Assembly (NCBI RefSeq): GCF_000420945.1
Contig: NZ_ATVX01000006.1
Span: 62,001-126,000 of the forward strand
Length of the DNA stretch: 64,000 bases
Direction: 5' to 3'
DNA from: Butyrivibrio sp. VCB2006
GTDB taxonomy: Bacteria; Bacillota; Clostridia; Lachnospirales; Lachnospiraceae
A model generated the notes under the pieces. That model ran no database searches. It was not told where the DNA came from and saw only the letters and a list, made by a program, of their open reading frames with translations. Within the stretch, counting starts at the first letter, position 1, and every line of letters starts with the position of its first letter. Position numbers and translations under genes: made by a program. This document shows positions 49,747 through 51,625 of the stretch, piece by piece.

Positions 49747-50502
49747 ATGAGCGTTGTATCAATGAAGCAGTTACTTGAGGCAGGTGTACATTTCGGACAC
49801 CAGACAAGAAGATGGAACCCTAAAATGGCTCCTTACATCTTCACAGAGAGAAACGGAATCCACATCATCGATCTTCAGAAGTCAGTTGTAAAGGTTGACG
49901 AGGCTTACAAGGCAGTATTCGAGATCGCACAGCAGGGTGGAACAATCCTTTTCGTTGGAACTAAGAAGCAGGCTCAGGACGCAGTTAAGACTGAGGCAGA
50001 GCGTTGCGGTATGTACTATGTAAACGAGAGATGGCTTGGTGGTATGCTCACAAACTTCAAGACAATCCAGAGCAGAATTGCTAGAATGAAAGCTATCGAG
50101 AAGATGCAGGAAGACGGAACATTCGATGTTCTTCCTAAGAAGGAAGTTGCTCAGCTCAAGAAGGAGCTCACAAAGCTTCAGGCTAACCTTGGCGGAATCA
50201 GAGATATGAAGAGAATCCCTGACGCTATCTTCGTAGTAGATCCTAAGAAGGAAAGAATCTGCATTCAGGAAGCTGAGTCTCTTGGAATCACACTTATTGG
50301 TATCGGCGATACAAACTGTGATCCTGAAGAGCTTGATTTCATCATTCCTGGTAACGATGATGCTATCAGAGCTGTAAAGCTTATCGTTGGCAAGATGGCA
50401 GATGCTGTTATCGAAGCTAACCAGGGCGCTGAGTCAGATGCTGCAGCTAACTATGTAGCAGATGAGGCAGAGGCAGCTGAGGCTGAGGAAGTTAACGAGT
50501 AA
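49747..50502 (+). CDS. rpsB: 30S ribosomal protein S2
   Basis: 251 residues with TGGAGG 7 bases upstream. Core family sequences are [40 protein letters not shown] and [14 protein letters not shown], then [12 protein letters not shown] and [18 protein letters not shown]. The C-terminal tail is Ala/Glu-rich. Codon choice is strongly biased, as expected of a highly expressed gene. It pairs with tsf as in most bacteria. Confidence 0.98.
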
Positions 50503-50510
50503 TTTTTTTA

Positions 50511-50634
50511 ATGAGACAAGCGAAACAATAATAAATACAATTTTATGTTTGCATATACAATTGTATTTATTATTGATTTCATTTGGCGAATAGCCAAAAC
50601 GAGGAATTGTTTACAATTCCGAGTCTTGTCTCAT
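50511..50634 (+). ncRNA. Four-stem RNA structure between rpsB and tsf
   Basis: Outer stem ATGAGACAAG (50511-50520) with CTTGTCTCAT (50625-50634), 10 perfect base pairs. Inside are three hairpins: 50522-50580, a 17-bp perfect helix plus 4 bp across a one-base bulge, with a TATG/CATA cap; 50582-50598, TTTGGC/GCCAAA with a 5-base loop; and 50603-50620, GGAATTG/CAATTCC with a 4-base loop. It starts 9 bases after the rpsB stop and ends 37 bases before tsf. Only a weak T-rich tail follows, so it is an attenuator, processing site or protein-binding element rather than a plain terminator. Confidence 0.65.
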
Positions 50635-50671
50635 AATTTTATATAATTATATAAATACGGAGGATAAATAA

Positions 50672-51625
50672 ATGGCTATCACAGCAGCACAGGTTAAAGA
50701 GTTACGTGAGTCAACTGGCGCAGGTATGATGGAGTGCAAGAAGGCTCTTACAGAAACTAACGGAGATATGGATGCAGCCGTTGAGTATCTTAGAAAAAAT
50801 GGTATTATGAAGGCTGAGAAGAAGGCTAGCAGAATTGCAGCTGAGGGTCTTACAAGAGTTGCTCTTAAGGATGACAAGACAGCAGCAGTTGTAGAGGTTA
50901 ACTCAGAGACTGACTTCGTTGCTCAGAACGACCAGTTCAAGGCTTTCGTTGAGGCAGTTGCACAGCAGGCTGTTAATTCAGATGCTAAGGATCTTGAGTC
51001 ATTCATGGCTGAGAAGTGGAACCTTGATGAGTCACAGACTGTTAATGATGCACTTGTAGCTATCACAGCAGTTATCTCAGAGAAACTTTCTATCAGAAGG
51101 TTTGAGAAGGTTGTTGCTTCTAACGGTATTGTTGTTCCTTACACACACGGTGGCGGAAGAATTTCAGTTATCGTTGAGGCTGAGACAGATGTTGTTAACG
51201 ACGAGATTAAGGATGCTATCAAGAACGTAGCTATGCAGGTTGCAGCTCTTAATCCTAAGTTCGTTTCTTCTGAGGATATCTCAGAGGAATACAGAAACCA
51301 TGAGAAGGAGATTCTTCTTGCTCAGGCTATGAAGGAGAACGAGGAGCTTCCAGAAGGCAAGAGAAAGCCTCAGGAGATCATCGAGAAGATGCTTGTTGGA
51401 CGTCTTAACAAGGAGTTCAAGGAAATCTGCCTTAACGAGCAGGTTTATGTAAAGGCTGAGGATGGCAAGCAGTCAGTTAGCCAGTATCTTGCACAGGTTG
51501 GTAAGGCAAATTCAGCTAACCTCAAGATCAAGAGATTTGTACGTTTCGAGACTGGCGAAGGTATCGAGAAGAAGAACGAGAACTTTGCTGAGGAAGTTGC
51601 TAAGCAGGCAGCTGGTCTTAACTAA
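50672..51625 (+). CDS. tsf: Translation elongation factor Ts
   Basis: 317 residues with CGGAGGA upstream. EF-Ts exchanges GDP for GTP on EF-Tu. The N-terminal UBA-like motif LRESTGAGMMECKKALTETN is diagnostic; VEVNSETDFVAQNDQFKAF follows, and the core domain ends with VGKANSANLKIKRFVRFETG. The gene is complete and ends before a strong terminator. Confidence 0.98.
   Translation: MAITAAQVKELRESTGAGMMECKKALTETNGDMDAAVEYLRKNGIMKAEKKASRIAAEGLTRVALKDDKTAAVVEVNSETDFVAQNDQFKAFVEAVAQQAVNSDAKDLESFMAEKWNLDESQTVNDALVAITAVISEKLSIRRFEKVVASNGIVVPYTHGGGRISVIVEAETDVVNDEIKDAIKNVAMQVAALNPKFVSSEDISEEYRNHEKEILLAQAMKENEELPEGKRKPQEIIEKMLVGRLNKEFKEICLNEQVYVKAEDGKQSVSQYLAQVGKANSANLKIKRFVRFETGEGIEKKNENFAEEVAKQAAGLN

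Follow-up and report, generated by a model that had tools for sequence, protein, structure and literature searches.

The NEMIS or Correia elements of Neisseria are miniature inverted-repeat elements (MITEs) of about 100-155 bp which, according to the cited accounts, are mostly intergenic and co-transcribed, their long stems being targets of RNase III (PMC2229807, PMC10969869). According to one of these sources, the ERIC sequences of enterobacteria are MITE-like repeats that are dispersed, lie between co-transcribed genes and affect the stability of the message (PMC2229807). For the rpsB-tsf spacer of Staphylococcus aureus, a predicted leaky intrinsic terminator with read-through is given in the cited work (PMC4608709). 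Clostridiales-1 (RF01699), which comes from Clostridiales and the human gut, was listed as a probable RNA that is not cis-regulatory (PMC2864571), and its type in Rfam is 'Gene; sRNA'. IS66 elements are stated to have ends of the form GTAAGCG and 8-bp direct repeats (PMC11946415).

The locus studied here is the rpsB-tsf spacer of Butyrivibrio sp. VCB2006, contained in a window of 64,000 nucleotides, that is, the whole stretch of DNA that was analysed. The spacer comprises 169 nt and carries an element, named R1, which is separated from the rpsB stop codon by 8 bases. The features are as follows.

49747..50502, + strand: rpsB (ribosomal protein S2), gene upstream of the R1 element; ORF of 251 aa, named by sequence recognition
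50511..50634, + strand: R1 element, old copy, predicted four-way junction; fold z -10.3, R1 match 115 bits with a model that includes this copy
50511..50520, + strand: outer stem, 5' arm, 10 bp with 50625-50634; predicted fold and covariation
50522..50580, + strand: stem 1, long hairpin of 21 bp containing one bulge, followed by a 1x1 loop and 5 bp more; predicted fold
50582..50598, + strand: hairpin 2, 6 bp, UUUGGC GAAUA GCCAAA; predicted fold
50599..50624, + strand: hairpin 3, 7 bp and a 2-bp base across a GA/GA internal loop, ACGAGG...CCGAGU; predicted fold
50625..50634, + strand: outer stem, 3' arm; predicted fold and covariation
50638..50655, + strand: small A-U hairpin between the R1 element and the tsf ribosome-binding site, outside the R1 family; predicted in the 169-nt fold
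50659..50663, + strand: GGAGG, likely tsf ribosome-binding site, unpaired in the predicted fold; from sequence and fold
50672..51625, + strand: tsf (EF-Ts), gene downstream of the R1 element; ORF of 317 aa

The complete spacer was predicted to fold with -52.7 kcal/mol compared with a shuffled mean of -22.6 (z -8.4), and positions 50511-50635 folded alone gave -50.8 versus -17.8 (z -10.3); in both cases none of 200 shuffles was as good. An earlier note on this DNA had drawn a 10-bp outer stem, a 21-bp hairpin with one bulge and hairpins of 6 and 7 bp and had judged such pairing improbable by chance. The predicted stems are the ones drawn there, and the judgement was borne out. The note also knew of no named family of this shape, and rightly so: no Rfam family was matched at gathering score anywhere in the window, and a relaxed Rfam search of the spacer returned 11 sub-threshold matches, mainly to microRNA hairpin models, which were taken as chance.

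The window copy and the S. aureus terminator are structures in the same spacer, and the latter partly separates both genes according to the cited work. The S. aureus structure is, however, a predicted intrinsic terminator, whereas a scan of the window copy found no terminator-like site on the + strand. The combination of a GC-rich hairpin and a T-run on the + strand is absent from this copy, in which the core of stem 1 is low in GC and the longest T-run of the 3' arm is 3. Intrinsic termination by the window copy is therefore unlikely. Crude terminator criteria were passed by 18 of the 71 R1 copies introduced below.

Related sequences were searched for in 79 Butyrivibrio genomes, including the window's own (G000). 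A nucleotide search at E <= 0.01 gave matches in 28 of them, many of which lay elsewhere in the genomes and covered the 3' half of the element. When folded, the full-length loci had a common plan: an outer stem closing on CAAGC and GAGUCUUG, a long hairpin unrelated in sequence, a UUUGGCG-type hairpin and a hairpin within CGAGG...CCGAG. The sequence of stem 1 varies widely among the copies, its pairing being kept. From the window copy and 14 of 24 folded regions we made an alignment of 15 copies; the ten regions left out include the full-length L009, L011, L012, L025 and L028, which were near-duplicates or not selected by the script. Paired cells amounted to 92.0% in this alignment against 72.6% after shuffling. 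With the covariance model R1 built from it, matches at E <= 0.001 were obtained in 78 of the 79 genus genomes. Across Lachnospiraceae, 108 of 250 genomes matched at E <= 1e-4, and the window's own genome had seven matching places at E <= 1.3e-5. The window copy itself scored 115 bits (E 4.7e-19 in its own genome), a high value by construction as this copy is one of the 15 rows of the model. Copy numbers per genome are lower bounds (44 candidates were scored for R1 in the genus, 13 for R1 in Lachnospiraceae and 30 for RF01699).

A second alignment contained 71 copies from the best part of a longer list; as these were fitted to the R1 model and hence lean towards it, the 95.1% of cells that pair (71.1% shuffled) have to be read accordingly. 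The covariation score was 0.643, compared with 0.192 for shuffled and at most 0.095 for slid alignments. Among the helices, hairpin 2 was the weakest with 85.0% of cells paired, and hairpin 3 reached 98.6%. The earlier note had named compensatory changes in relatives as the test of its fold, and such changes were plentiful: pairs with double-sided changes numbered 27 of 38 in the 15 copies and 37 of 38 in the 71 copies. The copies are 124-174 bp long, and in four of the 71 an unverified ORF of 72-186 codons extends across the whole copy. No published description of the family was found in the open-access literature of one library, nothing related turned up there by title and abstract for miniature inverted-repeat elements of Lachnospiraceae or for covariation of structured RNA in MITEs, and the literature matches listed for small RNAs of Butyrivibrio held nothing relevant. 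At one locus (L023:1386-1500), a full copy is accompanied by several partial ones of the hairpin-3 end in tandem; at another, an FMN riboswitch (119 bits; L015:2521-2638, minus strand) is situated about 1 kb from an R1 copy.

Mismatches in the 71 copies were used to decide which strand folds. Stem 1 contained 49 G-U and 8 A-C, 61 A-G and 6 C-U mismatches, a count that leaves out a basal C.A present in most copies, and hairpin 3 contained 20 G-U and 4 A-C, 93 A-G and one C-U. The outer ten pairs gave no strand signal (G-U 25 versus A-C 20; A-G 18, C-U 2). The excess of A-G is due to the GA/GA loops. In 63 of the 71 copies the + strand was predicted to be the more stable one. Together this points to the + strand as the folded single strand, which would most simply be RNA. 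A retron-like reading on the minus strand was considered and set aside, as the mismatches favour the + strand.

Evidence on the origin of R1 came from G103, a Lachnospiraceae genome of another genus with R1 matches in at least 13 places. Its copies, young members of the family, are near-identical, 141-142 bp long and placed in unrelated surroundings, and they are bounded by the inverted ends GTAACTGTTCAGAGCC and inverse, or close variants. The ends of the element are thus GTAAC...GTTAC, with the terminal sequence GTAACTRTTCAGAGCC. Flanking duplications were assessed by script at 39 loci of four genomes (G103, G247, G145 and G061), where 22 copies had both ends in the required form (17 in G103, three in G145, one each in G247 and G061). 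Repeats of 8 bp flanked 14 of these 22 exactly, five with one mismatch and three with two to four mismatches, compared with 0.1 exact and 0.5 one-mismatch repeats expected from re-paired flanks. Among the 71 genus copies, an exact 8-bp repeat was present in three, all at the same offset (0.2 expected), and repeats with one or more mismatches were not in excess. Four further copies in G103 (C22, C3, C8 and C13; L334-L337) are shortened derivatives of 79-98 bp that have kept the inverted ends and largely lost the fold.

R1 is short (under about 500 bp), apparently non-coding and dispersed in many copies. The inverted ends and the 8-bp target duplications of the 22 bounded copies identify it as a MITE, and we regard it as practically certain that R1 is a mobile MITE family of Lachnospiraceae. 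An autonomous partner with the same ends was not found in partial searches; it may be extinct or reside elsewhere. In the window copy neither terminal repeats nor a target duplication could be recognised, its outer repeat being only the 10-bp stem. Its mobile origin is consequently inferred by homology, and judged by its likeness to the family it very probably derives from mobile R1.

The ends of R1 and of the IS66 family both start with GTAA, and both groups have 8-bp direct repeats. They differ in that IS66 ends read GTAAGCG and R1 ends GTAACTRTT. Searches for a link detected no match to the IS66 transposase (PF03050) in G103, and the R1 ends were missing from all 30 IS66 loci that were inspected in the genus. 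In G103 two repeats lie 3.5 kb from each other (L333), and no ORF between them was recognised as a transposase by inspection. The exact 14-base R1 end gave 28 matches in 12 of the 79 genus genomes, with no pair enclosing a gene.

R1 resembles NEMIS/Correia in being a small MITE that folds into long stems. As far as the cited sources describe them, NEMIS/Correia elements are stem-loops with TA-type ends in the cited table, whereas R1 is a predicted four-way junction with conserved GA/GA loops and GTAAC ends. With ERIC it shares the dispersal of MITE-like repeats between co-transcribed genes; sequence, ends and hosts are different, and the ERIC effects involve RNase E.

Relatives of tsf were found in 72 of the 79 genus genomes, and the rpsB-tsf spacer was read in 70 of these (G044 and G048 were left out). 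R1 was strong in four spacers (G000, G038, G006 and G032; 94.6-115 bits). The spacer of G064 contained a weak match (26.5 bits, E 0.007) without the long stem, i.e. a remnant, and the other 65 had no + strand R1 match at E <= 1. In G010 the spacer is occupied by a Clostridiales-1 element (70.7 bits), and most of the remaining ones are short or have plain hairpins. A recurrent feature of the element-less spacers of G003, G004, G005, G008, G009, G022, G050, G052, G065, G067 and G069 is a plain GCAG...CTGC-type hairpin. In a tree of rpsB and tsf from 30 genomes (midpoint root), the five carriers together with the element-less G060 form a group of six genomes with support 99/99. This fits a single insertion of R1 between rpsB and tsf that would have been followed by loss in G060 and decay in G064. 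As G060 lies inside the carrier group without the element and 65 of the 70 spacers have no R1 match, the element is not needed for the operon.

The divergence of the element was compared with that of the four-fold sites of rpsB. Between the window copy and G038 the element shows one change in 124 positions against 12 of 101 four-fold sites (p 0.0007), a near-identity that local exchange could explain. There was no difference for G006 (11/124 versus 13/98) or for G032 (28/123 versus 20/91). Among the eleven changes in G006 are, in hairpin 3, a double change from G-C to A-U and a change from A-U to G-U.

The fate of R1 after insertion was followed at 12 loci, each present in at least two species. 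Between orthologous copies, 162 pairs had changed on both sides, compared with 46 expected from independent arms, although the species pairs are not independent and copy replacement or template switching in palindromes may contribute. Pairing was retained in 146 of the 162. One-sided changes led to G-U in 70 cases and to A-C in 37, and pair-breaking changes were one-sided in 149 cases and two-sided in 16. When only copies at least 86% identical were considered, 34 double-sided changes (6.7 expected) and a ratio of 33 G-U to 15 A-C were obtained. These changes were counted for the R1 RNA fold, which appears to have been kept after insertion.

Regarding orientation, there was no bias over all 71 copies (upstream gene on the same strand 44, opposite 26, none called 1). 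A bias was seen only in the shared loci, 10 of 13 of which are sense behind the upstream gene, compared with 10 of 27 single-species loci with a called upstream gene (p 0.04). This bias is weak, because three of the shared groups (ferredoxin-like, rplL and one with only upstream similarity) were assigned by eye where the crude gene caller erred; the single-species loci kept their crude calls, one of 28 having no upstream call. The genes upstream of shared copies include rpsB, rplL and those for EF-Tu and YchF, the rplL locus having an L10 leader upstream. Also encoded there are proteins similar to NlpC/P60 hydrolases and to YkwD, in both cases with matches that stay under curated cut-offs, and one further protein that we take to be ferredoxin-like by its cysteine motif. 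At the ferredoxin-like locus (L216 and L218, about 2475-2660) the last codons of the gene form part of the outer stem, and the 3' arm mirrors the synonymous codons of each species.

With respect to function, we assign a probability of roughly 60% to the window copy being an old, apparently immobile MITE copy that may act as punctuation of the rpsB-tsf operon. A MITE would have been inserted once between the two genes in the ancestor of one species group. Upon transcription of the operon a long, nearly perfect hairpin is predicted to form inside the junction immediately after the stop codon of rpsB, with the ribosome-binding site of tsf remaining free. By analogy to NEMIS and ERIC, the element could be a double-strand cleavage site of the RNase III type and/or a barrier, and cleavage or protection would give the rpsB and tsf portions of the message separate fates. 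The role of the copy would probably be message processing or partial decoupling. Since G060 and most species lack the element, any such role would be one of tuning and not an essential one. The copy could instead be a neutral relic, mobile debris in a tolerant spacer without effect on rpsB and tsf, whose covariation stems from selection on active copies before the insertion. A relic agrees with a single group in which the element is present, decayed (G064) or absent (G060), and also with the lack of the element in most species of the genus and with the G006 and G032 copies, which diverge as fast as rpsB four-fold sites. We nevertheless consider it rather unlikely, as double-sided changes between orthologues exceed the expectation with G-U favoured over A-C, albeit in species pairs that are not independent, and as G038 differs at a single position, for which exchange offers another explanation.

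The earlier note had seen the structure as a device of this operon that tunes the S2:EF-Ts ratio. Of this claim the structured RNA stood, and was strengthened by covariation. A dedicated cis-regulator (attenuator, processing or protein-binding site) that evolved at the rpsB-tsf operon would suit the position directly behind the rpsB stop codon, the strong fold and the leaky terminator given for the same spacer of S. aureus (PMC4608709), but it is disfavoured by the dispersal of the element, which occurs at many unrelated loci and is full in only 4 of 70 spacers, and by the lack of a + strand terminator-like site; we consider it very improbable. A putative tuning of S2:EF-Ts by cleavage or protein binding is possible. 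Equally little weight is given to a multicopy family of trans-acting sRNAs in which the copies would be independent genes, in the manner in which Rfam types the related Clostridiales-1. The + strand fold conserved across many copies speaks for sRNA genes; however, conserved promoter-like hexamers were not found upstream, outside the repeat, in 58 copies (after removal of 13 near-duplicates), and target duplications and inverted ends mark inserted DNA. One odd fold has led to a mobile family across Lachnospiraceae whose RNA structure appears to be under selection.

Clostridiales-1 resembles R1 in its outer stem, in a long hairpin whose sequence varies and whose tip is of the CUUG type, in another hairpin that contains a GA/GA loop (UGAGGAA...UUCCGAA) and in its many dispersed copies. 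RF01699 was matched in 77 of the 79 genus genomes at E <= 1e-6 (76 above cut-off) and at 23 places above cut-off in the window's genome. The two differ in the order and sequences of the hairpins and in their ends, which are TGAT...ATCA with 5-bp duplications in Clostridiales-1 and GTAAC...GTTAC with 8-bp duplications in R1. The window copy did not match RF01699 even at E <= 10, and so falls outside the family at its gathering score of 48 bits. Two R1 copies at rplL came close (L214 39.5 bits, L215 41.7 bits), and a third (L222) had no match at E <= 0.01.

Near-identical RF01699 copies of 168 or 203 bp with the ends TGATATAGG...ATCA were found at unrelated loci in three genomes (L390-L394; G018, G015 and G013). 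All five are flanked by exact 5-bp direct repeats, compared with none of 20 re-paired controls; they come from seven loci picked for likeness, two of which, L395 and L396, the script missed. Another 21 RF01699 copies had no exact 5-bp repeat (0.9 expected). At least one branch of Clostridiales-1 is thus mobile too, which suggests that this functionally uncharacterised Rfam family is in part of the same nature as R1. Both families use the same slots: between rpsB and tsf R1 is present in G000 and RF01699 in G010 (G037 has no RF01699 match there), and between rplL and rpoB RF01699 is present in G000 and R1 in G021, G031 and G003. A tentative proposal, which we hold to be somewhat less probable than its negation, is that two sets of transposon ends carry similar branched RNA cores whose fold is selected after insertion, with persisting copies lying sense behind genes such as rpsB, rplL, tuf and ychF and one family taking the place of the other from species to species; on this view RF01699, instead of being an sRNA gene, would be a 3'-end module that is mobile and has been domesticated repeatedly. 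The rpsB-tsf spacer of related species holds R1, Clostridiales-1, a plain hairpin or nothing, a natural experiment by which the tuning of a ribosomal operon by mobile DNA becomes testable by comparison. In one locus (L024:1429-1620, minus strand; 41.8 bits with RF01699) an R1 element runs straight into an apparent Clostridiales-1 3' half, and this copy seems to be a composite or a nested insertion.
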